From the NCBI GenBank assembly GCA_020161475.1, contig JAIUNQ010000004.1, positions 1 to 62,215 on the forward strand: a DNA stretch of 62,215 nt. Reading direction: 5' to 3'. Origin of the DNA: Pseudomonadota bacterium (GTDB taxonomy: Bacteria; Pseudomonadota; Alphaproteobacteria; Rhizobiales; Beijerinckiaceae). How positions within the stretch are numbered: the stretch's first letter is position 1; each line of letters opens with the position of its first letter. The notes below the pieces were generated by a model, which was not told the origin of the DNA, searched no databases, and worked only from the letters and a program-made list of their open reading frames with translations. The position numbers were made by a program, and so were the translations under genes. This document shows, piece by piece, positions 11,924-58,155 of this stretch.

Positions 11924-11928
11924 GGCGA

Positions 11929-15196: not shown

Positions 15197-15921
15197 GGCT
15201 TGGCCCCCGGCAGGGTGGCGGGGCTCGGGACTGTTTCCTGATCGCGCCGATATTCGGTCACCTGAAACCCCAGCGGGTTCTCAAAACGGTATTCGTTCTT
15301 GATCGGGGTGGCTGTGTAGCGAAAGCGGATCAGCGAGACCCAGTGACGTGTGACGGTGTTGGTCTGGCTCTTCTCTTCGGTCGAGAACCGCACGAGCGCG
15401 GTGCGGCCGTTCGGAAAGGTCACGGATTTGACGGTCACAGCGATGATCGCGTTGAGGCCCAAGACCTTGATCGGATTTTTTGGATTAGCCGGCGAATAGA
15501 TCTCGGTCAGCTCGCGCGCGGCGTCCCCGGTTGCAAGGAGCTGCGCGATCTCGAAATTCTCTTTGAGGGCTTTCGGGTCATAGGTCTCGCGCATCTTGAC
15601 GTAGCGGACCACGTTGAAGGTCGTGACCGCTTCATCTTGTGTGAGAACGCCTTCTGCCATCGGACGTTTGACCTCAACAAACCCCGTCGCCTTATCGACC
15701 ACCACCATGTAGGGCTCATAGGATTTGAGCGGGACGAGCATGACGAGCGCGATCAGCGCGAGGACCGCGAGCAAGGTCATGATGCTCGCGATCGCCCAGG
15801 CGATGGCGCGCGACGCCCTGTTCTTGCGAGCGATGTCGTGTTCCCATGTCCGGGCTTCCTCGTAATAGCGGGAATCACCCTTGGGCGTCGGGGGCGCTAA
15901 CGCGCTCTCGGTTGTTGTCAT
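15193..15921 (-). CDS. virB8: T4SS inner-membrane protein VirB8
   Basis: The protein has 242 residues, starting at the ATG at 15921 rather than the TTG two codons upstream. A cytoplasmic N-terminus (ARTWEHDIARKNRASRAIAW) leads into one membrane helix (about residues 42-65) and a periplasmic NTF2-like domain with YEPYMVVVDKATG and NPKNPIKV. It is an assembly factor bridging the inner-membrane complex. Confidence 0.93.
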   Translation of the reverse strand: MTTTESALAPPTPKGDSRYYEEARTWEHDIARKNRASRAIAWAIASIMTLLAVLALIALVMLVPLKSYEPYMVVVDKATGFVEVKRPMAEGVLTQDEAVTTFNVVRYVKMRETYDPKALKENFEIAQLLATGDAARELTEIYSPANPKNPIKVLGLNAIIAVTVKSVTFPNGRTALVRFSTEEKSQTNTVTRHWVSLIRFRYTATPIKNEYRFENPLGFQVTEYRRDQETVPSPATLPGAKP

Positions 15922-15951
15922 TGTCAAATCTCGAAAATTGGAATTGGCGCG

Positions 15952-17034
15952 TCAGATCGGCTGTCTGAGCTGGTTGGCGAGGCGGTTATGGTCCGGAGTT
16001 TCGCGCCGGGGCGGTGAAAGCGCGGGAGGCGATCCGTCCCGATATCCGGCGACAGCGTTTTGCATCCGGGCCGAGCGCAAGGCGGCGCGTCGCTCGTTGA
16101 GGGAGAGCATCCTCGTCATCGGGATGCGGGCATTGCCAGCAGCATCGAAGAAGCGACCGATGCGCGTATAACCCATGGGGATGCCGCCCGCGATGGAGGC
16201 CGCGACGCTATTGAGCTGATGAAGCAGCAGGATGCCGATGATCGCGACCAGGATGATCGGCGCGATATCGGCGAAGGTGGTGGTGAACCCGTTATTCGCG
16301 GTGTTGAGGCGATCGAAGAACTGCTGCGTCAGCCCGACGTAGAAGGCGATGAAGGCGTAAACCAGCACCTGCACCACGAAATACTGCACGAGCGTCGCCA
16401 TCCAGCCGGAGAAAAATCGCGACGTCACCCCGAAAAGCAGCAGGACGATGAAGATCGGGGCAAGGCCGAGAAGCAGCCACATGAAGATCTTCGAGAGAAT
16501 GATGAGGAAGAGCCCGAAGCCGACGAGGATGGCCATGGCGATGAGCAGGATCGCGGCGATGAAATAAGGGCCGGGGTTGGTGATCCCTGCGTTCTTGACG
16601 AAGGCCGCGACCGCATTGCCCGTCGTATCCCAGAGGTTCTGGAGGGCGGTCTGGACGGCATTGACCGAGGTGAGGTTCACCGAAAGGCCGGTATAGTTCA
16701 TGCTGCCGACGACATTGAGCAGCGCATTGCCAATGGCAGCCGGTCCCTCGTTCATGGCGGTATAGACGAGGCGCTGGAATTCCCCCCATGAGGTTGCCAG
16801 CGCATAGATCAGGAAGGCCCGAAAAAGGCGGAAGGCGTGATCGCTTGGGCCCCCGCTTGCGGTTCCCTGCCAGATCCCGATCCCCCAGAAGATGACATAG
16901 AGCGTGAGCAGCAGCCCGCCGACGGAGGTGATCCCGCCATCCGTCAGCGCGTTGGCGAGCGCACCATAGGCGCTGCCGACATAGGTCGTGCCTGCGCGAT
17001 CAACGTTGCTCAGAAGGTCGGTGACGAGGGCCAT
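15952..17034 (-). CDS. virB6: T4SS polytopic membrane protein VirB6
   Basis: The protein has 360 residues with about six hydrophobic segments, including LLLTLYVIFWGIGIW, AILVGFGLFLIILSKI, FMWLLLGLAPIFIVLLLFGV and APIILVAIIGILLLHQL. The WLLLGLAPIF region is the conserved TrbL/VirB6 core. It forms part of the inner-membrane channel. It sits between the virB7-like lipoprotein gene and virB8, the standard order. Confidence 0.92.
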   Translation of the reverse strand: MALVTDLLSNVDRAGTTYVGSAYGALANALTDGGITSVGGLLLTLYVIFWGIGIWQGTASGGPSDHAFRLFRAFLIYALATSWGEFQRLVYTAMNEGPAAIGNALLNVVGSMNYTGLSVNLTSVNAVQTALQNLWDTTGNAVAAFVKNAGITNPGPYFIAAILLIAMAILVGFGLFLIILSKIFMWLLLGLAPIFIVLLLFGVTSRFFSGWMATLVQYFVVQVLVYAFIAFYVGLTQQFFDRLNTANNGFTTTFADIAPIILVAIIGILLLHQLNSVAASIAGGIPMGYTRIGRFFDAAGNARIPMTRMLSLNERRAALRSARMQNAVAGYRDGSPPALSPPRRETPDHNRLANQLRQPI

Positions 17035-17046
17035 GAAGAAGCGCTT

Positions 17047-17244
17047 TCACAATGGCCGCATCGGACCGCAGGCATTGAGCCCAAGGGGGTCGACGAGAAG
17101 TGCGCTCAGAACCTGCGGAAGCACCGCGCCAAGAAAGCTCGAGAGCGGTTGGGCATCGCCCGGCTCACACGGCGCTTTGAGAGGACGATGCCCGCAGGCC
17201 GAAAGCGAGAGGGCCAAGGTCGAGATGATGATCATCCGGCGCAT
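17047..17244 (-). CDS. virB7: Small lipoprotein, VirB7-like
   Basis: The protein has 65 residues. A type II signal peptide (MRRMIIISTLALSLSAC) has lipobox LSAC, so the mature N-terminus should be a lipidated Cys18. Two more Cys residues follow. Size, lipobox and the position between virB5 and virB6 match VirB7, which anchors the outer-membrane core complex. The assignment rests on those features because VirB7 proteins share little sequence. Confidence 0.75.
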   Translation of the reverse strand: MRRMIIISTLALSLSACGHRPLKAPCEPGDAQPLSSFLGAVLPQVLSALLVDPLGLNACGPMRPL

Positions 17245-17248
17245 CAGC

Positions 17249-17980
17249 TTACTGCCCCTGCTGACCGAAGGGGCGGTAGGTCATGGCATTGGCGGCGGCA
17301 GAAGCTGCCGCGAGGCGATCGAGGTTGGCCTGATTGGTTGCGGTCACGGCGGTATTCACGACGCCGGTCAGCTCGTTGATCGTCTGCCCGGTCTGGATCT
17401 GGACCTGCGTGTTCTGATCGACCGATCCCTTGAGATCCTGTGCCGAGCCGATTTGCGATCCGCCTTGCGTGAAAGCGGAGCTTCGTTGCTGGATCGCGCC
17501 TTGGGTCGACGAGACAAGCCCCGTGATGGTCGCGCTGACGTTGACCGAGTTCTGATAGGCCTGATCGGTCGGGCGCACCGATCCATTGATGAGACCGGTG
17601 AGCGAGCGCACGAGTTGCAGACCGTTGATGAGGTTGGAGACGATCCCTTGCGCGTCCGAGCCCATCCCGCCGAAGGCGAGCGTGCCTCCGGAGATGACGG
17701 AGCCGAGCGAGGGCGCGCTCGCCATATTGAATCCTCCGCCGAGCGCCATCTGCGCGAGCGAGCCTTGGGCGGCAGAAGAACGATCCCCTGTGATGGCTTG
17801 AAGCGTGCGCTGGGTGTTGGTCAGCACCTCGCGATCAGTCTCCAGAATCTGGCGGGTCGATGTTGCAATCTCCTGCGCTTTGGCGAGGTTTGCGGCATCG
17901 TTGACCGGCACCTGCGCAAAAGCGCTGGAAAGCGTGACCAAGAGTGCGGCCGTAGTGAAAAGCGGAATGGCGGGCTTCAT
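17249..17980 (-). CDS. virB5: T4SS pilus-associated protein VirB5
   Basis: The protein has 243 residues with a signal peptide ending SSAFAQ. The mature N-terminus (VPVNDAANLAKAQEIA) and the long Gln/Ser/Thr-rich helical body match VirB5/TrbJ proteins, which are minor pilus-tip components. It is closely followed by the virB7-like gene. A second protein with the same VPVNDAA start is encoded just upstream (17994-18914). Confidence 0.85.
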   Translation of the reverse strand: MKPAIPLFTTAALLVTLSSAFAQVPVNDAANLAKAQEIATSTRQILETDREVLTNTQRTLQAITGDRSSAAQGSLAQMALGGGFNMASAPSLGSVISGGTLAFGGMGSDAQGIVSNLINGLQLVRSLTGLINGSVRPTDQAYQNSVNVSATITGLVSSTQGAIQQRSSAFTQGGSQIGSAQDLKGSVDQNTQVQIQTGQTINELTGVVNTAVTATNQANLDRLAAASAAANAMTYRPFGQQGQ

Positions 17981-17993
17981 GGGATGAGGTCCT

Positions 17994-18914
17994 TCAGTTC
18001 AGGGTACCAGCGCGCCGCTGGCTGGCGGCGAGCGCTTCGAGCAGTTCGGCTTCGGTGATGGTGCTACGGGCAGGAGCTGACGCCGCCGAGGGGCGGACGG
18101 GGTCGAGCGTCAAAGTCGATGCAAGTTCAAGGAAGACCCGCACGTTCCCGTCGCTGTCGACATAGCGGCGCGTGATGCAGGCACTATCAGGCGTCGTCCC
18201 GCTCGGTGTCGTCGAACAAGCTGTTGGTCTGCAGGGATCACTCAGGCTTCCCGTTCCGCTATAGCCCGTCGGGCAGGCGGGGCCGGGAGGCGGAGGCCGC
18301 GGCGGGGTTGGGCCGACGAGCGTGGTGGCGGCCTGACTGGCATCACTCTGATTGGCGAGATTGAGGGCGTTGAGCGCCTGAACGAGCAGATTGGCGCTGG
18401 CCATCACCTGGTTCCAGGTCATCCCGTTCTGGATGCGGATCGAAGAGTTCTGATCGAGGGCTTCCGTGACGGTCTGGGTGCTGCCGACTTCGCTGGAGCG
18501 GGCACGGTAGGCTTCACCATTCTGCGTGATGGTGCCTTGTGTTGCTTCAACCCCTGAAACCACCGTGCCGGCTTGTGAGCCAAGTTGCTGCTCGTTCAAC
18601 GTGCCGCCCGTCGCGCCCTGCTGCGGCGTTGCCGGCAAGCCCGGCGCATAATTCTCGACCGCTGCGGCGCCGGTCGTCGGATTGGCCTGACGCTCCGGAT
18701 TCTGGACATTGCCGCGACCGGATTTGGTCACCGCGCATTTGATGCCCTCGCGCTTCTTTTTGTGATCCAGAAGCACGGATTTGAGCTCGACCTTGTGCGT
18801 GCTCTCCTGCGCCTTGCGCTCGAGGATCGCGGCATCATTGACCGGCACGTTGGCGAGTGCAGGGGCGTAAAGGCTGAGAATCAGCGCGAGGAGCGTGAGC
18901 GGACGCGCTTTCAC
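17994..18914 (-). CDS. Second VirB5-like exported protein with Cys-rich tail
   Basis: The start is the GTG at 18914, which overlaps the virB4 stop as GTGA; the longer frame would lie inside virB4. The 306-residue product has a signal peptide ending APALA and then NVPVNDAAILERKAQ, the same mature start as the VirB5 gene next to it. The central part is a Gln/Thr/Ser helical region like VirB5. The C-terminal 90 residues add a proline run and a block with four Cys (PACPTGYSGTG, DPCRPTACSTT). It is probably a tandem-duplicated VirB5 with an added disulfide-rich domain. Confidence 0.75.
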   Translation of the reverse strand: MKARPLTLLALILSLYAPALANVPVNDAAILERKAQESTHKVELKSVLLDHKKKREGIKCAVTKSGRGNVQNPERQANPTTGAAAVENYAPGLPATPQQGATGGTLNEQQLGSQAGTVVSGVEATQGTITQNGEAYRARSSEVGSTQTVTEALDQNSSIRIQNGMTWNQVMASANLLVQALNALNLANQSDASQAATTLVGPTPPRPPPPGPACPTGYSGTGSLSDPCRPTACSTTPSGTTPDSACITRRYVDSDGNVRVFLELASTLTLDPVRPSAASAPARSTITEAELLEALAASQRRAGTLN

Positions 18915-21322
18915 GACGCTGCCCTCCCCATGAAGATCGGCAGCCACTGGGAAGGATCCGGGCCAACCTGCTCGATCAGCGATTCAAGCTCGGCGACCGT
19001 TTCGGTTCGTCCGGAGAGGACCTTGATGAGATCGCCCATGCCCGCGAGGTTGAGTTTGGCGATGACGCTGTCCTGGGCATGTTTGATCAGGAACGAGCGT
19101 TGTTCAGGCACCGAGGTACGGATCCACTCCACCTCGCGCGCGGAGAGACGGAAGGCCTTGCGATAGCTCTCGTCATCCGCTTTCGGATTGGGAAAGAAGA
19201 TGTTGGTGGCGCTCTGCTCAATCAGCGTGTTCGCGGATTTCGAGCGCACGATGTCGGCGGCGCTCTGGGTGCCGAAGCCGATGATGCCGTTCTGCTTTCG
19301 GATGGTCTTGAGCTTGTCCTTGATAAAGGACGCGAAGACCTCGTCTTCGAGAAGGCGCCAACCCTCGTCGAGAAAGATCATCACCGGATCGCCATTGAGA
19401 AGCTCATCGGTGCGGTGGAAGATATACATCAGCGCGGCGGTTCGAATGACGGGATCATCGAGGACCCGCGTCATGTCGAAGCCGTAGATCGAGGACAGCG
19501 AGAACTGATCGATCGGATTGTTGAAGAGCCAGCCGCGTTGATCGTGTCGGAGCCAGGTCTCAAGGCGCGCAAGAAGATCGCCCTCCCCTGCGCGAAGGCG
19601 ACCCCTGAGCAGGGTTGCAAAAGCGGGAAGGGTCTTGCCCTCGTCGGGCCCCGTCAGCACAGCGCCGACAGCGTTGCGAATAACCTGCTCTTCGCTGGCC
19701 GACATCTGCCGATCATCGCTCGGCTTGAGCATGTAGGCGAAAAGCTGGAAGAGGAATTCGCGGTTCTCGCCGCTATCGGGAAGGCTGAGCGGGTTGAACC
19801 CGGTCGATTCACCGGGGCTCAAGACCTCATATTGACCGCCCATGGCGCGAATGAAGATTTCCGCGCCCCGGTCCTTGTCGACGAAGAGAAGTTTCGGACG
19901 CGGAACGATCCGCTGTGCCTGTGCGGAGAGGAACGAGAGAAACACCGTCTTGCCTGACCCCGAAGGGCCTACAACTGTGAAGTTCCCAAGATCGCGGATA
20001 TGGGCATTGAAATAATAGGCGGTCTGGGAGCTGGTCTCGAAGACGGAAAGCGCCGGACCCCAGTGGTTTCCGGAGGCTTGGCCCGAGGGGTAATTATGCA
20101 GGGATGCGAGCCCTGCAAAGTTCTTGGACGACAGCGTGGCCTTGCGGGCGATGTAGGCGAAATTCCCCGGCAGCTGCGCCCAGAAGGCGGGCTCGCAATT
20201 AAGATCCTCGCGCACCCAGATCACGGACCTGTCCGTCAGTGCAGCGCCGATGGCGGTGACGGCGGCATTGACCTCGCTAAGCGTGCGTCCAAGCGGCATG
20301 ATCGAGAAATGATGCTCGCCGTAGATCGCTTCGGAGGCGAGAAGTTCATCGCGCGCGATCGCGAGGTGATCGGCGACAATCGATTCCGCTTCATCCGACA
20401 TATCGACCTGGCGGGTGACGCGGTCGATCTGCTTGGCCGCCTCCGGGCGATCGATGATCGCAAAGCTCTGTGTGAGGATGAACTCATGCGGGGCCCGGAG
20501 CAGGAGATCGAGCGAACCCGGCCCCGTAAAGGCGGGATATTCGCGGATCGATAGGATCGCGCCGAAGCGGGTGTCCTCTTCTGAGGCGCCCCGGATCTCG
20601 ATCGCGTTTCGACCGAAGAAAATACGCTTCATCGCCAATGCTTCGTCGAGCGGCATGCGCGGCAAATGCATCGGGCGAGGTGCTGCGCCATTGACGAGCT
20701 GGATCAGGAACTCGAGCGGCTCAGAAAACCAACCGTCCTCGCGCTTGACGACGCTCAGGCTTATGGCCCCGTAAGCGCCGAGGGTTTCGCGGATGGCTGT
20801 GGTGACATCGCTCAGTTCGGACAGCGCCTCAGCCTCGCTTGCCGACTGGCCGGCGGCGGTCTTCTTGCCGAGAAGACGTTCCAGCACCCCCTCGAAATTC
20901 CCCGCCTGCCCCTGCAACGGTCGGCGAAGAATTGTGAGGTAGATGTCGTTGACGAACATGCGGCGCTTGCCGAGCGCCTCATGGTAACGCCGGTCGAGTT
21001 CCTCGCAGAATGCGTTCTCGAAGGTGGAGGGGATGCCGGGTTCGACCTCACGCCGAATGATGTGCTGATAGAGCGCGAAGCGGGAGTTCCCGAGCATGCG
21101 CACGAGATCATTGCGCGCCATCATGCGGGCGTTGATCTCACTCATGTCGGCGGTCTCGAAGCAGTAGCCATCGAGCTTGAGCGTGGTGATCAGTAGGCCT
21201 GTTTTGGTGCGTATTGTCGTGTCATCGACGTGGCGCGCGTAGGGGATGTGTCCTGCGAGCGGTCGCTCCCGTGAAGCGGCCGAGCCAAAGGTCATCTCGG
21301 CAAGAAGGGCGCGCGCGACCAT
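18911..21322 (-). CDS. virB4: T4SS ATPase VirB4
   Basis: The protein has 803 residues. The ATG at 21322 was chosen because it is eight bases after the virB3 stop and has TTTGAGGCGCAA just upstream; the longer frame overlaps virB3. The N-terminal VirB4/CagE domain is followed by Walker A GPSGSGKTVFL near residues 450-460 and Walker B MIFLDEGWRLL near 645-655. It is the largest T4SS energy module and supports pilin extraction. Length and motifs are complete. Confidence 0.95.
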   Translation of the reverse strand: MVARALLAEMTFGSAASRERPLAGHIPYARHVDDTTIRTKTGLLITTLKLDGYCFETADMSEINARMMARNDLVRMLGNSRFALYQHIIRREVEPGIPSTFENAFCEELDRRYHEALGKRRMFVNDIYLTILRRPLQGQAGNFEGVLERLLGKKTAAGQSASEAEALSELSDVTTAIRETLGAYGAISLSVVKREDGWFSEPLEFLIQLVNGAAPRPMHLPRMPLDEALAMKRIFFGRNAIEIRGASEEDTRFGAILSIREYPAFTGPGSLDLLLRAPHEFILTQSFAIIDRPEAAKQIDRVTRQVDMSDEAESIVADHLAIARDELLASEAIYGEHHFSIMPLGRTLSEVNAAVTAIGAALTDRSVIWVREDLNCEPAFWAQLPGNFAYIARKATLSSKNFAGLASLHNYPSGQASGNHWGPALSVFETSSQTAYYFNAHIRDLGNFTVVGPSGSGKTVFLSFLSAQAQRIVPRPKLLFVDKDRGAEIFIRAMGGQYEVLSPGESTGFNPLSLPDSGENREFLFQLFAYMLKPSDDRQMSASEEQVIRNAVGAVLTGPDEGKTLPAFATLLRGRLRAGEGDLLARLETWLRHDQRGWLFNNPIDQFSLSSIYGFDMTRVLDDPVIRTAALMYIFHRTDELLNGDPVMIFLDEGWRLLEDEVFASFIKDKLKTIRKQNGIIGFGTQSAADIVRSKSANTLIEQSATNIFFPNPKADDESYRKAFRLSAREVEWIRTSVPEQRSFLIKHAQDSVIAKLNLAGMGDLIKVLSGRTETVAELESLIEQVGPDPSQWLPIFMGRAAS

Positions 21323-21329
21323 TTGCGCC

Positions 21330-21626
21330 TCAAACCGAATAGGTATCCGCCCCCCAGAACGCGCGTGAACGCGGGGGGCATTGGGCGGAGCGCACGAAGA
21401 GGATTTCGAAGATGCGCTCATCGCGCAACGTCATCACGAACCCGAAGAGATGGAGCGGGATCGCAACCAGCAGCATCGCGAGGTTATGGCTCGCCAGAAA
21501 CACGACGGAAGTCGCGACCCCGTTGAACATGAAATACATGTAGGGAACGCCCATCAGCGTCGGGGCACGCGTGAGCGCCCGCACCAGCGGAACGATAAGG
21601 GGCTTTTCGAGATCGCCCTCGCTCAT
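21330..21626 (-). CDS. virB3: T4SS membrane protein VirB3
   Basis: The protein has 98 residues from the ATG at 21626, which overlaps the virB2 stop. The sequence DLEKPLIVPLVRALTRAPTLMGVPY is followed by two membrane segments (ATSVVFLASHNLAMLLVAI, FGFVMTL). This is the usual VirB3 layout between virB2 and virB4. Confidence 0.9.
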   Translation of the reverse strand: MSEGDLEKPLIVPLVRALTRAPTLMGVPYMYFMFNGVATSVVFLASHNLAMLLVAIPLHLFGFVMTLRDERIFEILFVRSAQCPPRSRAFWGADTYSV

Positions 21627-21955
21627 CGTCCGACAGCCGACTGGAAGAACTGGACGATCTGGGCCGAGCCGAACACCAGCACGATGCCGGAAATGACGGA
21701 TGCTGAAATACCCCAGGTGAGGCGTCCGCTCCACGCGAGGAACCCGCAGGCGATGACCGCGAGGATGGCGAGCGATGTGGCGATCGGTCCCGTGAGCGCC
21801 TGAACGAGAGTTTGCAGCGTCGATTGAACCGGCTGGAGCGTGCCCTGCGCAAAGGCATCGACGCCGAAAAGCGCGAGAGCGCTGACGATGAGGGCAAGGC
21901 GCGGAAGGGGGCGGCGCATAGGAAAAGCGCCGCGCGGGGAAACATTACAGGACAT
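21623..21955 (-). CDS. virB2: T4SS major pilin VirB2
   Basis: The protein has 110 residues. The ATG at 21955 lies five bases after the virB1 stop; an internal ATG at 21919 is a possible alternative. A long signal peptide ends VDAFAQ. The mature pilin of about 73 residues has two hydrophobic helices (TSLAILAVIACGFLAW and SASVISGIVLVFGSAQIV), the normal VirB2 form. Confidence 0.88.
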   Translation of the reverse strand: MSCNVSPRGAFPMRRPLPRLALIVSALALFGVDAFAQGTLQPVQSTLQTLVQALTGPIATSLAILAVIACGFLAWSGRLTWGISASVISGIVLVFGSAQIVQFFQSAVGR

Positions 21956-21960
21956 GAATT

Positions 21961-22743
21961 TTACTCGAGGTTGAACACAAAACCGGAAGCCCAGCGCGGA
22001 TCCGGGGAGGCCGATTGACGCTCTTTCGAGCGCGGTGAGGCGGATTCGTGCGCGCCAGCTTGCGCGCTCAAAGGCGGAGCAGTCTGCGTGAGCATAGGCA
22101 GTTCCCCGATGGGGCCCGCAAGCTCGTGCAGCGCGATGACGACAAAGCGCAATGTCTCTTCGGAGCGCGGAACACCACCACTTGCAATGAAGGCCTCTTC
22201 GCCATCGCGGTAGGCCGCGAAATGATGAAGTGGGTTGGGGTAGCGGTGGCGAAGTGCATAGAGCTGTGCGACGCCGCGTTGGATCGACGCCGTCATCTCT
22301 GCACACGAGCGCGCGGGTAAATCCAAGGTCGGCGTGATGCGGGGCGGTATGGTTGGGCCGCCTGCCTGTGTGGTCTGGGCGCCAAGCTGACTTTCAGCGC
22401 GCAGCACCGCATTCAGCGTTTCCAGCGGAAATTTGATCGCTTCGGCTTCGCGCGTTGCAATGGCCCGGATCTCTGCGGGACGGAGTTTGCGGGAGCCGCT
22501 GCACGCCTCGCCGTTGTCATCACCACCAATCGTCGCGGGGCGCATGGGAACGATGCGCCCCTCTGAATCCAGCATGGCATTGGCGGGGACAACAGGTGCT
22601 TCCGGCGTCATCTGGGCGAGCGGCCGCTCAAGCCGGATCGCGACTTTTTCAGGGTGATTGGGGCGATCTGGTAACGTCTGAGCCATTGCCAATCCTGATC
22701 CAGCCAGCGTGAGCGCGAGGCTGATGCCAAAAATTCGAATCAT
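21961..22743 (-). CDS. virB1: VirB1-like lytic transglycosylase
   Basis: The protein has 260 residues from the ATG at 22743, with GGTGG upstream. A signal peptide ends GLAMAQ. The segment LRPAEIRAIATREAEAIKFPLETLNAVLRAESQLGA has the helix and Glu-Ser signature of SLT-type muramidases. The GLMQL motif that usually follows is not evident, so catalysis may be weak or altered. It is the first gene of the virB operon and would open peptidoglycan for the channel. A second muramidase-like protein is encoded at 25103-25804. Confidence 0.7.
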   Translation of the reverse strand: MIRIFGISLALTLAGSGLAMAQTLPDRPNHPEKVAIRLERPLAQMTPEAPVVPANAMLDSEGRIVPMRPATIGGDDNGEACSGSRKLRPAEIRAIATREAEAIKFPLETLNAVLRAESQLGAQTTQAGGPTIPPRITPTLDLPARSCAEMTASIQRGVAQLYALRHRYPNPLHHFAAYRDGEEAFIASGGVPRSEETLRFVVIALHELAGPIGELPMLTQTAPPLSAQAGAHESASPRSKERQSASPDPRWASGFVFNLE

Positions 22744-22795
22744 GAGGACCACCGTTCTGGGGTTGCGATGGTTTCTAACAAGCGATATGCAGTAA

Positions 22796-22808
22796 ACAAT
22801 ATATTAAA
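22796..22808. promoter_or_regulatory. AT-rich operator-like site 1 (ACAATATATTAAA)
   Basis: The site lies between the divergent virB operon (start 22743) and the operon beginning at 22854. It matches two other sites, at 26298-26310 and 26695-26707, over about 10 of 13 positions. It is placed where a repressor could control both directions. Confidence 0.5.
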
Positions 22809-22822
22809 GTCAACACAACACC

Positions 22823-22839
22823 TGCTCCTTTTTGGAGCA
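22823..22839. promoter_or_regulatory. Hairpin TGCTCC-TTTTT-GGAGCA before the exported-protein operon
   Basis: A perfect 6-bp inverted repeat with a 5-T loop ends 14 bases before the ATG at 22854. If transcribed, it could affect access to the ribosome binding site; it could also be a protein-binding site. Confidence 0.35.
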
Positions 22840-22853
22840 ACTCCGGAACACCG

Positions 22854-23357
22854 ATGCTTCGTCCGTTTCTTTTCTCCGTTGCCGCAATGGGATCGCTCGT
22901 TTCGGCCGCCCCAAGTGCCGTCGCGCAGGACGCTTCCTTCGGCTGCAAGGTGCTGCTTTGTGCTGCGGCAACCGCGCCATCCTGGTCCGGGATTCCCTAC
23001 TGCGTGCCCGTGATGACGCAGCTTTTCCGGATGCTCGCGCGGGGTCGGCCCTGGCCGACATGCCCGGAGGGGAACGCGGGCGGGTTGGGGTATGAACCTT
23101 ACCTCCCCTGCCCTGCGCCGGGCTTGCCGTATTCGCTGGCAGGCGAAGGTGGTGGCTACGTTCCTGATGCGAATGGCGGCCTTTGCGCCGATCCTGCGCG
23201 CATCGCTCGGGAGTGTGTCAGCTCTGGCGATAACGGCTCGTCCTGCGATCAGGCGAGCCTGTTGACCCCGCGACCGCAACGCGCCGAGCCGCACTATGTC
23301 GACATCACCACGGGTGGGCAGTCCACGCGGTTCTATTTCTCGCTGCGGGGCTATTGA
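22854..23357 (+). CDS. Exported Cys-rich plasmid protein of unknown function
   Basis: The protein has 167 residues. A signal peptide (LFSVAAMGSLVSAAPSAVAQ) is followed by a Cys-rich mature part with about nine Cys, including CKVLLCAAATAP and SCDQASLL near the end, suggesting several disulfides. No enzyme motif is recognised. It is the first of five exported-protein genes diverging from the virB operon, so a role in the T4SS periplasmic or surface assembly is plausible but unproven. Confidence 0.65.
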   Translation: MLRPFLFSVAAMGSLVSAAPSAVAQDASFGCKVLLCAAATAPSWSGIPYCVPVMTQLFRMLARGRPWPTCPEGNAGGLGYEPYLPCPAPGLPYSLAGEGGGYVPDANGGLCADPARIARECVSSGDNGSSCDQASLLTPRPQRAEPHYVDITTGGQSTRFYFSLRGY

Positions 23358-23360
23358 TCC

Positions 23361-23963
23361 ATGATCAAGAGATCGACCGCGGCGGCGGTGGCCGTCATCG
23401 TGGGGCTCGGGATGATCCCAGCTCACTCGCAAAGCGCGAGCCAGGCTTGGATTCCGCTTCCTGAAACTGCGCGATTTGAAACGGGCGATACTTGGACGAT
23501 CGGCACTGCCCGGTATCGTCTTTACGGCGTTCAGGCCTGCTTGCGCGGGACCAACTTCACCAACACCAATGGTCAGAAACGGGATTGCGGGGAAGCGGGC
23601 CTCTCGGTGCTCCTCAGTCTGGTCCGTGACCTGAAGCCTTTGTGCGCGAACGTTCTTGAGGGGCAGCAGGCAGGCACAATCCATGTGACCTGTTTTGCCT
23701 TCCCGACCACCGGCACAGCAGCCGGAAGCCGTATCGATTTAGGGGTCGCGCTTATCGCTTCAGGCTTCGCCTTTGCTGCGCTCAAGCCTGATGGCAAGCC
23801 AGTCCATCTCCCCTATTTTGTTGCAGAACTCGATGCCAAGCGCGCTAAAGTCGGGCTCTGGGCGTTTCCCGATCTGCCCGAGCCCAATGCCATCATTTTC
23901 AAGGCACTGCGCGATTCTCAGGCCGGGGCTGCTACAGGTGGACATGATGGGGTGCACCCGTGA
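23361..23963 (+). CDS. Exported protein with degenerate thermonuclease (SNase-like) fold
   Basis: The protein has 200 residues with a signal peptide ending PAHS. The pattern of an SNase domain is visible: GTARYRLYGVQAC, RDCGEAGLSVLLSLV, then RIDLGVALIASGFAFAA and AKRAKVGLWAF near the C-terminus. In active nucleases the first motif reads RLxGIDAPE; here the acidic residues are replaced, so nuclease activity is doubtful. It lies three bases after the upstream gene and overlaps the next one (TGATG). Confidence 0.55.
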   Translation: MIKRSTAAAVAVIVGLGMIPAHSQSASQAWIPLPETARFETGDTWTIGTARYRLYGVQACLRGTNFTNTNGQKRDCGEAGLSVLLSLVRDLKPLCANVLEGQQAGTIHVTCFAFPTTGTAAGSRIDLGVALIASGFAFAALKPDGKPVHLPYFVAELDAKRAKVGLWAFPDLPEPNAIIFKALRDSQAGAATGGHDGVHP

Positions 23964-24532
23964 TGGCGAGGCACGCCTTTTTGGTCGCCCCCGTCCTTTG
24001 CGCTTCTATTTTCTCAAGTGCGGTGCGCAGCGAGAGCCATTCCGATGATCCGAAGGCGTGGCGCGCCATGACGGTGATGGACCTCCAACTGGTGGGGCCG
24101 CAGCAAGCCTTTCATGCCGGGATCTGGAATGATCTCATTTCTAACAACAACGCGGCGCAGGTTGCAGCTGCAGCGAAGACACCAAACCTTCTATCGATCG
24201 GGAATCCGCCAGCCCGCGCCGTTTTTGTCACGGTCAGAAGTCCACAGGTCGTTGTGGTGCTGAGTATCCTCGGCGCCCCGCGCCTTTGCGAGCCTCTCTC
24301 GGGTTCGACATCCGTACTTCGCTGCCCCATGCGTCTCATCCGGTTCGAGAACGGGAAGAGTTCGATGCGCGAAGGGCGGGGGTGTTTCGCCGGGGGGAAG
24401 CCGGGAAGCAATGAACCGGCGGCCTATGCTTCTTACGATACCTCCTCCCGGATGATCCGTTTGGGGGTGCTTACGGGTTCGAGTGCGGTCGAGGGCTGTT
24501 CGCAGTCTGTGCCGGTCAGGGAGAGTGAGTGA
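23963..24532 (+). CDS. Exported protein of unknown function
   Basis: The protein has 189 residues from the ATG at 23963, which overlaps the upstream stop. A short signal peptide ends near SSAVRS. The mature part has three Cys in LCEPLSG, LRCPMRL and GCFAGG and a C-terminal GCSQSV. Its layout (hydrophobic strand, then RLC/RCPMRL, then GRGCFAG) resembles that of the next protein (CPLKIALTE, GTGCFVE, ECTRSF), so the two may be diverged paralogues. Function unknown. Confidence 0.6.
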   Translation: MARHAFLVAPVLCASIFSSAVRSESHSDDPKAWRAMTVMDLQLVGPQQAFHAGIWNDLISNNNAAQVAAAAKTPNLLSIGNPPARAVFVTVRSPQVVVVLSILGAPRLCEPLSGSTSVLRCPMRLIRFENGKSSMREGRGCFAGGKPGSNEPAAYASYDTSSRMIRLGVLTGSSAVEGCSQSVPVRESE

Positions 24533-25095
24533 TGACACCTTGGGTGAGAGGTTTGGGTTTGGCTCTGGGGCTGGCGTCGGCCGCTCCGGCGGCCTTCGGC
24601 CAAGGCGCCGAATGGAAGACGATGGAGCATCATGATCTGACCGATAAATCGTCAGACGCGCTTCAGACCGTCTTATGGCGCAGCGAGATCGCGGATCAGA
24701 ACACCTATGTCAGCCAGAAGCTGGGCCGCGATCTTCAGGGGAGAAACGCTTCCATGGTAGCGCTCGTTCAATCCTTTGATTTCGCTGCCAAGCGCGTGGA
24801 GGTATCCGTGCTTTCTTCCCGCAAATGCGAAGGAGGCGCGAACCACAACGCAAGTGGTCCGGAGCATTCCCTCTGCCCGCTCAAGATCGCGCTGACAGAA
24901 GCAGGGCAAACGCGCGTTGTGGCAGAGGGTACGGGTTGTTTTGTGGAAGCCCCCGAACGCGATGCCGCTCCGCCCCATCAACAAGACGCAATACAGGTTC
25001 AATTTGATCCGAAACAGGGTGTCTTGAAGATGCGAGCCCTTCTTGGCGGGCGATGGGTTCCGGAATGCACCCGCTCCTTCGCGCTGTCGCGGTAG
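24532..25095 (+). CDS. Exported protein of unknown function, possible paralogue of the previous gene
   Basis: The protein has 187 residues. The ATG at 24532 overlaps the preceding stop (TGATG). The signal peptide ends PAAFG. The mature part has four Cys in RKCEGG, SLCPLKIAL, GTGCFVEA and ECTRSF; the order and spacing parallel the protein at 23963-24532. No catalytic motif is recognised. Confidence 0.6.
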   Translation: MTPWVRGLGLALGLASAAPAAFGQGAEWKTMEHHDLTDKSSDALQTVLWRSEIADQNTYVSQKLGRDLQGRNASMVALVQSFDFAAKRVEVSVLSSRKCEGGANHNASGPEHSLCPLKIALTEAGQTRVVAEGTGCFVEAPERDAAPPHQQDAIQVQFDPKQGVLKMRALLGGRWVPECTRSFALSR

Positions 25096-25102
25096 GTGCG
25101 AG

Positions 25103-25804
25103 ATGCGAAAGACCACTTTCGTCGCTTTGGCGGCATGTTTCTGGATTGCGCTCGCTTGTGTTCCGGCTTCCGCACAACGGCAGCAGTATTGCGAGCGAAC
25201 CAATTATTCGGCGCAGGAAATCACCAATGCCGTGAATTCCTCTCCCCTTCGAGATGAACTCAAGGCGACTTCCTGCTCACTCGGTGGGCTCGGCCGTTTC
25301 GAATCTGGCGGCAACACGGGCGTCTACAATGGCAGCTGTTGCACGGGGATCTTTCAGCTCAACAATGCGAACGTCCGGAACTACGCCGGGGTGGACCGCC
25401 AGACGTTCGGCTGCATGAGCCTTCAACAGCAGGTCGATGCCTGGGCCAGATTGACCAATGACGGCTACAACACTGGCGTTGTCCGCCGCCTGACTGAGAT
25501 GGGCACCTTTGATGGTCAGCGCGTGGATGCGAGTTTTATTGCGGCTTGCATCCAGCTCGGCACGGGGAATTGCCAGACCATGGTCAATTCCGGTCGCTGT
25601 TCAGGCTTTGCAGATTCCAATGGAACGACAATCTGCGATATGGCGCGCGCGGCGCAATCGAACGCTGACCCCAATTGCCAGAACAATCCCAATGCTCAGG
25701 CCTGTGACCTCGGCCCGGGGGATTTTGGCGGAACGGGTCCGGTTGCCGCTCAGCCACCTGCACCTGCAGCCGCTGATATTCGGGTCGGCGTTGGCCAGGT
25801 GTGA
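25103..25804 (+). CDS. Exported muramidase-like (lytic transglycosylase fold) protein
   Basis: The protein has 233 residues from the ATG at 25103. The signal peptide ends PASAQ. The segment GGLGRFESGGNTGVYNG, then CTGIFQLNNANV and QQQVDAWARL, matches the catalytic Glu-Ser, the G-x-FQL motif and the following helix of SLT/lysozyme-like domains. Several Cys (CC, C in FGCMS, CSGFAD, CDMARAA) suggest disulfides. The C-terminus is low complexity. It may be the main peptidoglycan opener for the T4SS, given that the virB1 product lacks part of the motif. Confidence 0.65.
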   Translation: MRKTTFVALAACFWIALACVPASAQRQQYCERTNYSAQEITNAVNSSPLRDELKATSCSLGGLGRFESGGNTGVYNGSCCTGIFQLNNANVRNYAGVDRQTFGCMSLQQQVDAWARLTNDGYNTGVVRRLTEMGTFDGQRVDASFIAACIQLGTGNCQTMVNSGRCSGFADSNGTTICDMARAAQSNADPNCQNNPNAQACDLGPGDFGGTGPVAAQPPAPAAADIRVGVGQV

Positions 25805-25830
25805 GCGCTGCCCACTAGTGCGTTTCGTTA

Positions 25831-26211
25831 TCAGGAACGCTTGATCGCTTTGCGCGAGGCTTCGCGCTGCTCGTCGATTTTCGTCAGAGCTTCGACACGG
25901 GCCCTGCTCGCGGCCGTAATCGCCTCAAGATCGATATCATGTTTGGCGAGTGCTTTTGTCACGACGCCGTCGTTGAGGCCAATCAGCTCCCAGACCGAGA
26001 GACCGAGGCCTTTGGCGATGACCTCAAGGGTATCAAGCGTGGGGTTGGATTCACCTCTGACCAGCAGATAGTAGGTTCCGGGCGAAATCCCGATCTTCCG
26101 AAGGAAGGTTTGGAGATCATCGTGTTCAGCCGCCAGCTGCTCCAGTCGCAGGCCGAGGAGCGAGGCGAGGGTCTTTTCGACCGTGCGGCTGCGGCCAGCT
26201 TTTGGGGCCAT
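25831..26211 (-). CDS. XRE-family DNA-binding regulator
   Basis: The protein has 126 residues. The ATG at 26211 is preferred to the TTG at 26226 because AAGG lies upstream. The HTH spans about residues 25-75: LQTFLRKIGISPGTYYLLVRG then NPTLDTLEVIAKGLGLSVWELIG. The basic C-terminal tail is helical. It is convergent with the exported-protein operon. An AT-rich palindrome lies 87 bases upstream of its ATG and recurs at two other promoters, making this protein the best candidate for the shared regulator. Confidence 0.8.
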   Translation of the reverse strand: MAPKAGRSRTVEKTLASLLGLRLEQLAAEHDDLQTFLRKIGISPGTYYLLVRGESNPTLDTLEVIAKGLGLSVWELIGLNDGVVTKALAKHDIDLEAITAASRARVEALTKIDEQREASRKAIKRS

Positions 26212-26297
26212 CGATTTTACCTTCAATGATCGTCGTGCGAAAACGATGACACCTGAACCATCGATAGCGCAAGCACGATTCCTGCAATAGGTGTTTG

Positions 26298-26310
26298 ACG
26301 ATATATTGTA
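26298..26310. promoter_or_regulatory. AT-rich operator-like site 2 (ACGATATATTGTA)
   Basis: The site lies upstream of the XRE gene. Read on the minus strand it contains TACAAT, a good -10 element, so a bound repressor would block the XRE promoter (autoregulation). It matches sites at 22796 and 26695. Confidence 0.5.
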
Positions 26311-26360
26311 GGCGATGAAAATCCTAAGGTTTAAAATACGTTAGTAGCAGCGATCTGTCC

Positions 26361-26633
26361 TCAGTCGGAATAGCAGCTCAGCTTCTGAAGCTCCGGCAGA
26401 GCTTGTTCGATCACATCGGCATCCAGCTCACTCTCGAAAACCAGAGCATGGACGCTTGCCCAATAGAGAACCTCACTGTTATCAGAATGATAGACGCCGC
26501 TCGCCAGCCTGCGCGCGATCAGCTCTCTGACGTTTTCTGCGGGATAGGACTTCAGAAACTCGACCAGTGGTCGAAGGGGACCTCGTGGCGGGTGGGCCAT
26601 GAGTTCAAACGCTTCCGGCAAAATTCTCTCCAT
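26361..26633 (-). CDS. Small hypothetical protein
   Basis: The protein has 90 residues, acidic and helical, with no recognised domain. The sequence (LRPLVEFLKSYPAENVRELIARRL, DADVIEQALPELQKL) looks like a real folded protein, and the frame stays open with GC-rich third positions. The ribosome site is weak. It is divergent from the large ParB-like gene. Confidence 0.5.
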   Translation of the reverse strand: MERILPEAFELMAHPPRGPLRPLVEFLKSYPAENVRELIARRLASGVYHSDNSEVLYWASVHALVFESELDADVIEQALPELQKLSCYSD

Positions 26634-26694
26634 CTCGCAATCTGATTCTTGGAAAGCGGCCAGACATGACTGACTCCAGTCCTAATTTCAATCT

Positions 26695-26707
26695 GCAATA
26701 TATTGTA
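26695..26707. promoter_or_regulatory. AT-rich operator-like site 3 (GCAATATATTGTA)
   Basis: The site contains the perfect palindrome CAATATATTG (26696-26705). It lies between the small gene at 26361-26633 and the ParB-like gene at 26848, where it could control either. It is the best-conserved copy of the three. Confidence 0.55.
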
Positions 26708-26847
26708 TGAACATCCACTGTGGGGAGGGATCTGGAAATCTTCCGGAGGTGGGCGGCTGGGCAGAATTAGAGGTTGGCCGTCGTGGGAATGACGGCTTGG
26801 AAGGGGAAGAGAGAGGTTCTGCCCCGGCCGTCATGGAGATGACGCCA

Positions 26848-28977
26848 ATGACCATTCAAGCCCTCGCCCCTCGCCAGGAACTTGCCACTTCACGCGATAT
26901 TCCGCTCTCCAAGCTGGTGCGTTCGGATGCCAATGTCCGCAAGGTCAAGTCCGGGATCAGTGTCGATGAACTCGCTCAGGATATTGCGCGGCGCGGCCTG
27001 CTTCAGTCGATTTCGGTTCGACCGGTTCTTGATGTTGCTGGCGCTGAGACCGGCACCTATGCTGTCAGTGCTGGTGGTCGGCGTTTCGCGGCCCTTCGCA
27101 CCTTGGTGGAGGAAGGGCGTTTGCCCGCCGATACGCCTGTTCCCTGCCTCATCAAATCTGACGGTATCGAGGTGGAGGATTCGCTGGCCGAGAACGTCAT
27201 GCGTGCCGGGCTCCATCCGCTTGATCAGTTCCGCGCCTTCAAGTCGCTCAGCGATCAGGAAGGGCTGACGATCGAGGAGATCGCCACACGCTTTTTCGTC
27301 TCACCCCAGATTGTCCGGCAACGCCTGAAGCTCGCATCCGCAAGCCTCGTGCTTCTCTCAGCCTACGCGGAGGACGAGATCAACCTCGATCAGTTGATGG
27401 CGTTCTGCGTGAGCGGTGATCACGCTCGTCAGGAAGCGGTCTGGGAGCAGATCCGGCACAGTTACAATAAGGAGCCCTATGCAATCCGGCGCCTGCTCAC
27501 TGAGGGCGCGGTCAAGGGCAATGACCGCCGCGTACTTTTTGTCGGGGCCGACACCTATGATTCCGCTGGCGGCATCATTGATCGAGATCTCTTCGCTGAG
27601 GATGGCGGCGGTTGGTTTTCCGACGTGGCACTGCTCGACCGGCTTGCGAGCGAGAAGCTTGCAGCTTGCGCCCAGCAGATTGAGGCTGAGGGCTGGAAGT
27701 GGGTCGAGACCGCTGTTTCGTTTCCCTACGGCCATCTCAATGGGCTGATGCGTCTGACTTCAGAACCGGTCCCGGTCAGCGACGATGAGCAGGCAGCCTA
27801 TGATGCTGCACTCGTCGAGTACAACGCACTTTCACAGGAGTATGAAAGCGCGGAGGAACTGCCCGAAGATATCGATCGCAGGATGGGCGAACTCGAAGGC
27901 ATCATGGCGGCGATTGAAGATCGTCCTGCAACCTTCGTTGCCACCGAGCTTCCTCATGCGGGTGTCTTCATCAGCATCGATCACGATGGTCGCCTTCGTG
28001 TCGAGCGCGGCTTTGTTCGCCCGGAGGATCGGGCTGCGCTCAATGCGATGCGATCCGGCGCGTCTTCCGGATCCTCGGATGGCGAGGAGACATCGGAAGG
28101 CGGCCGTGCCGTTCCCGATGATCGCTGCCCCGCCGCGGCAGAAGAAGCGGAGGTGGAAGCCGAGGCGAAGCTCTCGGATAGACTGACCGCCGAACTGACC
28201 GCTTGGCGAACCTTGGCCCTGCGCGAGAAGCTGGCGGAGGATCCGGATACCGCTCTACTGACCGTGACGCATGCTCTGGCATTGAAGACCTTCTACCGCT
28301 TTGCGGGGCCGGACAGCTGTCTCGAGATCGACCTGCGTTCCGCCAACCTCGATGCTCAGGCAATGGACCTGGGCGAGTCTCCTCTGGCAGCGAGGATGAA
28401 CGCTCGTCAATCACGTTGGGCCGAGCTTCTCCCGAAATCTCCTCATGAGCTTTGGGAAGTGCTCGTCGCCTACGATGCCGATAGCCTCGCGGCATTGTTC
28501 GCCTTCTGCGCATCGCAATCGCTCAATGCGCTCGAGCTTCCCCATGTGCGTCGGACGCGTGAACTTGCCCATGCCGATGCGCTTGCGGATCTGGTGGATC
28601 TCGACATGCGCACGCATTGGCAGCCCACGGCGAAGGGGTATTTCTCGAAGGTAACCAAGGCCCAGATTCTGGCGACGATCCGCGAGGTCAAAGGCGAGAG
28701 CGCTGCGCAGATGATCGATCACCTGAAGAAGGCCGATATGGCAATCGAGGCTGAGCGCTTGATCGCAGGCAGCGGGTGGTTGCCCCAGCCGCTCAAGGGC
28801 ACGCGAGAGGCTGCGCCTTTGCGGGTTTCGAGATCGGCGAATGACTTCGGTCAGTTCGATGCACCGCAGGTTGATGTCGATGGGAGCCAGTATGACGAAA
28901 CGCAGGAGGCAATCCTGCCAGCGTTCCTGACGGAAGGGCTGCACAGCTCCGCTGACTATACCATCGCAGCCGAATAA
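26848..28977 (+). CDS. Large ParB/Spo0J-like plasmid protein
   Basis: The protein has 709 residues. The ATG at 26848 is favoured over in-frame ATGs at 26833 and 26839 because GGAG lies nine bases upstream. The N-terminal ParB nuclease-like domain (IPLSKLVRSDANVRKV, SVDELAQDIARRGLLQSISVRPV, SAGGRRFAAL, ENVMRAGLHPLDQFRAF) is followed by an HTH (EEIATRFFVSPQIVRQRLKLA). The remaining 500 residues have an acidic Glu/Ala-rich middle and a helical end without a known domain. Members of this long ParB-like group are common on alphaproteobacterial plasmids and are distinct from RepB. Its job is unknown; transcription control or DNA maintenance are possible. Confidence 0.85.
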   Translation: MTIQALAPRQELATSRDIPLSKLVRSDANVRKVKSGISVDELAQDIARRGLLQSISVRPVLDVAGAETGTYAVSAGGRRFAALRTLVEEGRLPADTPVPCLIKSDGIEVEDSLAENVMRAGLHPLDQFRAFKSLSDQEGLTIEEIATRFFVSPQIVRQRLKLASASLVLLSAYAEDEINLDQLMAFCVSGDHARQEAVWEQIRHSYNKEPYAIRRLLTEGAVKGNDRRVLFVGADTYDSAGGIIDRDLFAEDGGGWFSDVALLDRLASEKLAACAQQIEAEGWKWVETAVSFPYGHLNGLMRLTSEPVPVSDDEQAAYDAALVEYNALSQEYESAEELPEDIDRRMGELEGIMAAIEDRPATFVATELPHAGVFISIDHDGRLRVERGFVRPEDRAALNAMRSGASSGSSDGEETSEGGRAVPDDRCPAAAEEAEVEAEAKLSDRLTAELTAWRTLALREKLAEDPDTALLTVTHALALKTFYRFAGPDSCLEIDLRSANLDAQAMDLGESPLAARMNARQSRWAELLPKSPHELWEVLVAYDADSLAALFAFCASQSLNALELPHVRRTRELAHADALADLVDLDMRTHWQPTAKGYFSKVTKAQILATIREVKGESAAQMIDHLKKADMAIEAERLIAGSGWLPQPLKGTREAAPLRVSRSANDFGQFDAPQVDVDGSQYDETQEAILPAFLTEGLHSSADYTIAAE

Positions 28978-58043: not shown

Positions 58044-58104
58044 GCGCTGGAGACGGTAAACTGCCGCCAGTTCTTGGTTTGAGCAAAAGGAAGGATCAAC
58101 CCGC

Positions 58105-58155
58105 AAAAGAAAAAGGCCCCCAACGTTTCCGCCGGAAGCCCTTCTCGTGATTAGC
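58105..58155 (-). ncRNA. repABC antisense RNA (ctRNA)
   Basis: On the minus strand a -35 TTGACA (58185-58190) and a -10 GATTCT (58162-58167) have a 17-base spacer. The start should be near 58155. About 12 bases on, a 10-bp stem with G-U pairs (58134-58143 with 58112-58121) is followed by a T-rich tail, a factor-independent terminator. The roughly 50-nt product lies between repB and repC, exactly where repABC plasmids encode the small RNA that limits RepC synthesis. Confidence 0.88.

Follow-up and report, generated by a model that had tools for sequence, protein, structure and literature searches.

The conjugation repressor of the Bacillus plasmid pLS20 is a protein of the XRE type. The conjugation genes of pLS20 are under repressor control, as proposed below for the plasmid analyzed here, although pLS20 is a Gram-positive system with other transfer genes. 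The operators of IncP-1 plasmids are distributed over the backbone operons. In these plasmids, KorA, KorB, TrbA and KorC are global repressors acting on plasmid genes (PMC4889941); this network includes several repressors, whereas the present analysis yielded a single operator type and a single candidate repressor. In the IncU plasmid RA3, one plasmid-encoded regulator, KorC, coordinates the operons for replication, stability and conjugative transfer, and korCp is described as constitutive (PMC7414963). Conjugation in rhizobia likewise has plasmid-encoded regulators: trbR of pRleVF39b is a transcriptional regulator of transfer, and rctA of rhizobial plasmids is a constitutive repressor (PMC9601222); the passages on them name no operator family.

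The contig analyzed here (hereafter, the window; 62,215 bp, contig C17 of its genome) is a repABC plasmid, with repA, repB, repC and the ctRNA all present (Table 1). It resembles the plasmid global-repressor regulons of the KorC/KorA kind in that the same putative operator is found at several backbone operons, including those for transfer. As in RA3, a single plasmid-encoded regulator, here a candidate, would act on several operons. Unlike RA3, the plasmid belongs to another family, the operons are those of a virB-type type IV secretion system (T4SS), exported proteins, the relaxase, the XRE protein and a ParB-like protein or ParA, and the promoter of the regulator usually bears the site, in contrast to korCp as described. 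In the open-licence papers searched, we found no description of this XRE-palindrome control system.

Palindrome copies in the window

The palindrome reported in the initial annotation at 22796, 26298 and 26695 is present at all three places. The pattern RCRATATATTNNA yields four strand matches in the whole 62,215 bp (22796 and 26298 on the plus strand, 26694/26695 on both strands), compared with a mean of 0.02 in 100 shuffles, in agreement with the original judgment that the three copies are unlikely to result from chance. ATATATT, counted across the contig, gives five strand matches at the same three places and none elsewhere (mean 0.50 expected). These copies are embedded in a 12-bp palindrome-like element, approximately ACAATATATTGY, which is best preserved in copy 3, weaker in copy 2 and imperfect in copy 1. 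All three lie in non-coding DNA, outside the accepted genes, and non-coding DNA accounts for 7.8% of positions 1-28977 (hand-made gene list, with the start of the ParB-like gene set at 26845); many copies inside genes, the pattern that had been named as contrary to a regulon, were not found in the window (0 of 3).

Table 1. Coordinates of the palindrome copies and associated features (window positions unless a contig is named)
Feature	Position	Strand	Remarks
Operator copy 1	22793..22813; core 22796-22807	.	core ACAATATATTAA; within block TAAACAATATATTAAAGTCAA
Operator copy 2	26298..26309	.	ACGATATATTGT; XRE gene 87 bp downstream
Operator copy 3	26695..26706	.	GCAATATATTGT; flanked by 90-aa ORF (-) and ParB-like gene (+)
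VirB/VirD4-type type IV secretion cluster	10244..22743	-	PF02534, PF00437, PF03743, PF03524, PF04335, PF04610, PF03135
Five-gene operon	22854..25804	+	N-termini mostly look exported; rightward from operator copy 1
XRE / Cro-C1 type HTH protein, 126 aa, proposed regulator	25831..26211	-	PF01381, PF13443, alignment A1
90-aa ORF, function unassigned	26361..26633	-	upstream of XRE gene in 7 loci including the window
ParB-like gene	26707..28977	+	ParB_N, PRTRC ParB; start probably near 26845
repA, repB, repC	55852..59528	+	PF13614, PF07506, PF03428
ctRNA	58103-58145	-	Rfam; between repB and repC
CAATRTATTR inside relaxase genes	C169:8793; C349:7021

Copy 1 lies, as initially placed, in the divergent promoter region between virB and the exported operon; the VirB/VirD4 cluster reads leftward from it, and the gene order of the exported operon is conserved among relatives. 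By eye, TTGACT-N17-GCATAT can be read in the T4SS promoter around this copy; it is absent from the output of the consensus scan. Copy 2 had been assigned to the -10 box of the XRE gene, which we could not confirm: the site is 87 bp from the ATG, and the sole promoter-like match on the same strand spans 26241-26214. Copy 3 is indeed upstream of the ParB-like gene, but the region is divergent, with the 90-aa ORF (no match in Pfam or NCBIfam) on the minus strand. The ATG at 26707 directly adjoins this copy; judging by aligned relatives, the ParB-like protein probably begins ~100-140 bp beyond it. This protein scores below the cut-offs for ParB_N (23.4 bits against 26.3) and PRTRC ParB (67.1 against 278.6).

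A MobA/VirD2-like relaxase and VirB4/6/8/9/10/11/D4-type proteins were found, the relaxase scoring 46 bits with the MobP1 model, below its cut-off of 200. The relaxases are on separate contigs in this genome and on the same contig as the XRE gene in two related genomes, G001 and G002. Rfam models detected nothing in the window besides the repABC ctRNA. The T-DNA border likewise contains ATATATT; a T-DNA border or oriT nick site was set aside as the identity of the copies because these sit at several unrelated promoters.

Conservation of the sites at backbone promoters

All three copies recur in a second element of this genome, C4 (C4:33813, 38809 and 39207), whose XRE protein shows 92% identity. 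Two relaxase contigs, C110 and C169, both contain GCAATATATTGT, starting 117 bp before the gene preceding the relaxase; judging by these sites, the regulon exceeds the set originally proposed, and the relaxase operon apparently belongs to it too. In 397 genomes of the family, the T4SS-promoter block occurs five times (window, C4, G001, G002 and G018), identical save for one A/G position; it was recovered in four of the five genomes encoding a close XRE, the G010 contig stopping short of the T4SS promoter. The relaxase-promoter site is retained in all six aligned elements (a seventh, partial relaxase copy, G002:C18, is outside that alignment). With a matrix trained on this genome, the relaxase, ParB-like and T4SS promoters take ranks 1, 2 and 3 in G002:C24 and ranks 1, 3 and 4 in G001:C15, and the XRE promoter of G002 ranks 6. 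For G002:C24, the highest score by chance reached 20.2 in one of 15 simulations, above the real maximum of 19.3, and single matches are therefore not decisive. An operator at the promoter of the regulator itself is present in the window and in C4, the XRE promoters of G002 and G010 have GCGATCTATTGC only, and that of G001 shows no clear copy (L136, included in the matrix test below).

We searched five whole genomes for CAATRTATTR and found 31 places: 16 backbone promoters, two inside relaxase genes and 13 elsewhere, six of which were fetched (G001:C9, G002:C21, G010:C11, G002:C18, C139 and G018:C278). Host targets were considered among the first five of these, which have no blastn match to one another and were taken as chance occurrences. 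Such unrelated copies, along with the paralogy of C17 and C4, which makes their copies non-independent, speak for chance or shared ancestry alone, the palindrome being then a promoter fragment without a regulatory role. We regard this as highly improbable, given that the site survives at orthologous promoters despite diverged flanks and that the T4SS, XRE, ParB-like and relaxase promoters are, by eye, alike only at the site.

The search for the same sites beside homologous genes, suggested at the outset, was positive: the sites occur in C4 and four related genomes, and drifted versions occupy the XRE, relaxase, ParA and T4SS promoters of distant Hyphomicrobiales plasmids (XRE ~36-46% identical); across relatives, the promoters sharing sites are those of the T4SS, XRE, ParB-like or ParA, and relaxase genes, not all of them in each plasmid. 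With matrices fed by sites chosen by eye, ranks 1-6 in pOC167 are the ParA, HTH/repC, relaxase, XRE and T4SS promoters and one further gap (matrix from two other plasmids), and ranks 1-4 in LR699074 are ParA, relaxase, XRE and T4SS. The three exact matches of pOC167 to CARTATAYTRGATGTTG are description rather than a test because this consensus was composed after seeing sites that included those of pOC167. In Methylocystis AP027146, where an XRE is present (37%), no site was recognized at the relaxase or T4SS promoter. A blastn search of PLSDB with the T4SS promoter of the element studied here gave no match at E 1.

These distant promoters also bear on the reading of the AT-rich motifs as plain sigma-70 promoter elements, -10 boxes of backbone operons that stand out against a GC-rich background. 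By eye, distant homologs of the exported operon are preceded at the same spot by TATATT, TATAAT or TACAAT-like hexamers, and the T4SS strand of several homologs can be read as TTGCCA-N16-TATATT/TATACT. A repressor operator overlapping a -10 box is to be expected, so this reading is partly compatible with an operator. On its own, it appears quite improbable: CAAT...ATTG flanks are common to different promoters, the matrices select backbone promoters over other promoters of the same plasmids, and the T4SS block stays conserved across 21 bp in relatives, in which its surroundings have diverged.

The XRE protein as the candidate regulator

The XRE protein matches two Pfam families above cut-off (PF01381, HTH_3, 30.9 bits, cut-off 23; PF13443, 27.1 bits, cut-off 22), the HTH_3 score above the gathering threshold placing it among the XRE / Cro-C1 HTH regulators; it is not assigned to the RstR family (NCBIfam NF041951, 19.6 bits, cut-off 80). 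Profile A1 matches SinR and DdrO chains in PDB (best E 0.00099). The top Foldseek matches include ClgR, DdrO and SinR, none reaching E 0.001, with a single-sequence model (mean pLDDT 65.9) that supports no more than an XRE fold. A scan of genome contigs with alignment A1 gave 45 XRE loci; the same scan with the XRE protein alone confirmed no locus.

The XRE is present in 31 of the 32 plasmids that have the relaxase (35% identity or more). The exception, NZ_CP092849, has the relaxase and an RHH-like protein, no homolog of this XRE and neither form of the palindrome at the relaxase promoter. In 24 of 32 loci (L133-L164), no more than 5% of the AT-matched control segments score as high as the XRE-upstream region under a matrix built from relaxase sites, the locus's own site omitted; eight loci fail. 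Several of these loci are near-identical plasmids, so that the binomial value of the test makes the support look stronger than it is. Further operators from the locus itself may be among the controls and would make the test stricter. Excluded were L128-L132 (window-type, anchor out of reach), L165 (upstream DNA missing) and L166-L172 (weak matches outside Hyphomicrobiales). The matrix test supersedes a cruder, direct 16-mer comparison of XRE-upstream and relaxase-upstream regions (observed mean 11.74, control 11.20), in which only 3 of 27 loci had a value that no more than 5% of the controls attained; 38 loci were the input, and 11 lacking a relaxase anchor or upstream DNA were skipped.

Several observations point to the XRE protein as the regulator: its gene is linked to the sites, it accompanies the relaxase in 31 of 32 plasmids, its promoter usually bears a site, and the one relaxase promoter examined from a plasmid lacking the XRE has none. 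Linkage could also stem from co-inherited backbone modules. KorB, for its part, is a ParB-type protein. A shared regulator other than the XRE protein, that is, the RHH-like protein encoded before the relaxase, the ParB-like protein in the manner of KorB or, in some plasmids, a second HTH protein, seems unlikely. In favor of this reading, all six compared plasmids or contigs have the RHH-like gene (recognized by eye), that gene and the ParB-like gene are themselves preceded by sites, and KorB belongs to the global repressors of IncP-1 plasmids (PMC4889941); the second HTH gene adjoins the XRE gene in pOC167-type plasmids. Yet NZ_CP092849 retains the RHH-like protein and the relaxase without the site, tblastn at E 1e-4 finds no homolog of this ParB-like protein in pOC167, where both XRE and sites are present, and it is the XRE gene's own promoter that has the site in 24 of 32 loci. 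Furthermore, the RHH-like protein has no match in Pfam or NCBIfam. It could nevertheless act as a co-regulator. In pOC167, another gene of the ParB/RepB/Spo0J type is annotated at 136604.

Proposed mechanism and implications

The original proposal that the shared palindrome defines a transfer regulon, apparently a plasmid-wide one, is well supported by sites conserved at orthologous promoters and mostly shared with the XRE promoter. We consider it likely that all three copies serve as operators for a single plasmid-encoded regulator, most probably the XRE protein, which we infer to be a putative binder and a repressor rather than an activator. An XRE dimer would bind the palindrome CAATATATTG, hold its own promoter low and repress the leftward virB/virD4, rightward exported and ParB-like operons, and the relaxase operon elsewhere on the plasmid would likewise be held down. 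Because the palindrome fronts genes for transfer, the mating enzyme, a partition-like function and the repressor, here and in many distantly related plasmids, one small repressor probably switches conjugation as a block; upon its loss or inactivation, the conjugation and partition-like genes would be switched together.

A wide range of environmental and rhizobial plasmids probably share this system as a control point of conjugation. The palindrome provides a sequence handle for predicting regulon members and spotting relaxase operons on draft contigs, and also allows tests of repressor-operator drift and of cross-repression between related plasmids. More tentatively, a drifting XRE-palindrome pair might be the master switch of conjugation in many Hyphomicrobiales plasmids of the relaxase/VirB type, with cross-silencing of C17 and C4: the repressors and operators of the two are nearly identical, so each would silence the transfer of the other. 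If so, this cross-silencing would amount to transcriptional immunity between related plasmids, and operator drift would mark immunity groups.

Putative operator copies in the window and its genome

The window, a repABC plasmid contig, has repA, repB, and repC and a ctRNA between repB and repC; its T4SS genes are of the VirB/VirD4 type. The initial annotation proposed that an AT-rich palindrome, present at three promoters, is the shared operator of a transfer regulon under the XRE protein. The three copies are real. RCRATATATTNNA occurs at these places against a mean chance expectation of 0.02, and ATATATT is confined, within the window, to the same three places (mean of 0.50 expected), none of which (0/3) lies within an accepted gene. 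The copies differ slightly when set against ACAATATATTGY (see table). A consensus promoter scan of 22600-26900 yielded 2 sigma-70-like matches where 1.3 were expected; one of these, TTGACG-N16-GAAAAT (+ strand), overlaps operator 2, and neither match overlaps operators 1 and 3.

Coordinates of putative operator copies and associated features
Feature	Location	Sequence or remark
Operator 1, T4SS/exported operon divergent region	22796	ACAATATATTAA
Operator 2, XRE promoter	26298	ACGATATATTGT
Operator 3, ParB-like promoter	26695 (26694/26695 for RCRATATATTNNA)	GCAATATATTGT
Small terminator-like hairpin (- strand)	22822-22840	directly past operator 1, where the exported-operon leader begins
Conserved ParB-like leader	26770-26860	
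C4, T4SS promoter site	33813	
C4, XRE promoter site	38809	GCGATATATTGC
C4, ParB-like promoter site	39207	
Copy at the end of contig C139	L032:3085-3096	CCAATATATTGT
TTGACAAGATACCGG and inverted repeat	L003:5025-5070 and equivalents	candidate oriT
Sixth operator-like site of pOC167	L115:22583-22602 (pOC167 122583)	
LuxR-type/autoinducer-binding genes or AHL synthase	L110:11745-12479; L115:25062-25685; L111:17316-18033; L122:1-639	

Across the 3.08-Mb genome, CAATATATT is found at seven places (window, 2; C4, 2; and one each in contigs C110, C169, and C139), a palindrome matched on both strands being counted as one place. C4 is a second element in this genome build, with an XRE protein 92% identical to that of the window and T4SS and exported genes at 62-94%; this paralogous transfer element (L031, L005) carries all three operators, and the two are probably co-resident related plasmids. 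Both C110 and C169 have GCAATATATTGT, starting 117 bp upstream of a gene for a 153-aa protein (RHH-like by eye, without a Pfam match), which is followed by a MobA/VirD2-like relaxase gene. The 3.1-kb contig C139 stops exactly at its copy, adjoined by a TerC-like gene (named by eye).

Putative operator sites in related genomes

XRE homologs (E 1e-20 or better) were detected in 5 of the 397 family genomes, namely, the window's own, G001, G002, G010, and G018. The T4SS block WAAACAATRTATTAAAGTCAA, searched over the same 397 genomes with up to two mismatches permitted, occurs five times, each with 0 mismatches, in four of these five; in the remaining one, G010, the 9.8-kb contig ends inside the exported operon. 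XRE, VirB4, ParB-like, and relaxase genes share a single contig in G001 (102 kb) and in G002 (108 kb). The relaxase-promoter palindrome is kept in all six aligned elements (C110, C169, G001, G002, C376, and C349; G002:C18, where the relaxase copy is partial and contains a stop, was left out), where it adjoins the invariant ATTGACAAGATACCGGTT and varies, as read on one strand, to CAATATATTA in G002 and CAATATATCG in C349.

A matrix trained on eight sites from the window's genome ranked the relaxase, ParB-like, and T4SS promoters 1, 2, and 3 in G002:C24 and 1, 3, and 4 in G001:C15, where rank 2 falls within a gene. The third-best score was 13.6 in G002, compared to 9.5-12.9 in 15 first-order simulations, and 15.1 in G001, compared to 9.8-12.2 in as many; in one G002 simulation, the best chance score (20.2) exceeded the real best (19.3). 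G018:C81 has a copy flanked by apparent exported-operon genes (assigned by eye) on one side and the apparent ParB-like gene on the other. The expectation that the same sites stand beside homologous genes is thus borne out at the T4SS, ParB-like, and relaxase promoters of relatives. Other results weigh against the regulon: a clear operator copy is lacking at the G001 XRE promoter, the XRE promoters of G002 and G010 have GCGATCTATTGC, and 16 of the 31 places with CAATRTATTR over five genomes were assigned to backbone promoters, with nothing in common among five of the others when these were compared with each other.

At five loci (window, C4, G001, G010, and G002), the ParB-like gene has a strongly conserved leader, reading GGAAGGGGAAGAGAGAGGTT...GGCCGTC-TGGAGATGACG-like, with GCCGTC/GACGGC repeated. 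It may act as an RNA leader or as a site bound by a protein; no Rfam family matched it.

The first exported gene is present in 40 of the 397 family genomes, and in about a dozen of 30 loci, an AT-rich palindrome-like element of a different form was seen by eye upstream of it (for example, GTCAGTATATTGAC, GACAATATATTAGATGTTG, and CTAACATCTATTATAATAGATGTTAG). AT-rich palindromes of differing sequence occupy T4SS divergent promoters of other genera, upstream of the exported gene, in L082 (26 bp, perfect), L081, and L078. Such elements fit operators drifting together with their regulators, but they also fit an AT-rich -10 region.

Distant plasmids and a drifted motif

Homologs of XRE (35.6-46.2% identity) were found in 35 of 72,556 plasmids, all from genera that we take to be Hyphomicrobiales. 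Relaxase homologs (35% or more) are encoded in 32 plasmids, 31 of them also XRE-positive; eight more relaxase records (29-33%) are absent from the XRE list, and short relaxase-promoter DNA matched 12 records, all 12 in that list. The exception, NZ_CP092849, encodes the relaxase, the RHH-like protein, and the ParB-like protein; nothing in it matched the window XRE, not even the gene at 19402, which bears an XRE-family annotation; neither a VirB4 match nor an operator site in the relaxase promoter was found, and a single drifted-motif copy with two mismatches lies within an annotated gene (21528).

In these plasmids, the operator motif drifts towards CARTATAYTRGATGTTG. By eye, a related AT-rich motif lies immediately upstream of the relaxase operon in nine of the ten plasmids read, Methylocystis AP027146 being the one where it was not found, and TTGACAAGATACCGG lies upstream in all ten. 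Together with the inverted repeat that comes after it (for example, GGTTTG...CAAACC), TTGACAAGATACCGG is nearly invariant among the Hyphomicrobiales plasmids read and is a candidate oriT.

With a matrix from LR699074 and pBAL398.3, ranks 1-6 in pOC167 were ParA, HTH/repC, relaxase, XRE, T4SS, and a gap preceding the gene at 122736, possibly an additional regulon member; with a matrix from the other two plasmids, ranks 1-4 in LR699074 were ParA, relaxase, XRE, and T4SS. All three plasmids were in view when the training sites were chosen visually, so that the matrices were left-one-out and the choice of motif was not. When a matrix was built from relaxase sites alone, each locus's own site removed, no more than 5% of AT-matched segments reached the score of the XRE upstream DNA in 24 of 32 loci of the genome collection. 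One locus, L155, labelled Streptomyces sp. AcH 505, combines XRE with a Hyphomicrobiales-type relaxase anchor and is likely a contaminant in that assembly.

Candidate regulator and possible wider control

The leading candidate for the regulator of the predicted operators is the XRE protein: it is linked in the plasmids read, usually has a site at its own promoter, and pOC167 retains the sites without a homolog of the window's ParB-like protein. In pOC167, a different ParB-type gene is annotated, and a second HTH gene adjoins the XRE gene. Under the simplest reading, a repressor of the Cro/C1 kind would keep the transfer and partition-like operons low along with its own gene.

LuxR-type/autoinducer-binding genes lie beside the relaxase gene in pOC167, pBAL398.3, LR699074 (a fragment), and a Bosea plasmid; in pOC167 there is also an AHL synthase gene. 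This suggests, as a lead only, that quorum sensing may be superimposed on the proposed repression by XRE.

In rhizobial plasmids, control by quorum sensing, rctA/rctB, and trbR has been described (PMC9601222). For RA3, KorC is reported to be the main global regulator that coordinates the replication, stability, and transfer operons (PMC7414963), and the proposed regulon resembles it as a plasmid global regulator acting on its operators, a kind already known. The accessible parts of the open-licence literature yielded no description of this XRE/palindrome regulon. The points of interest in the proposed regulon are its wide occurrence and the drift of its operator.
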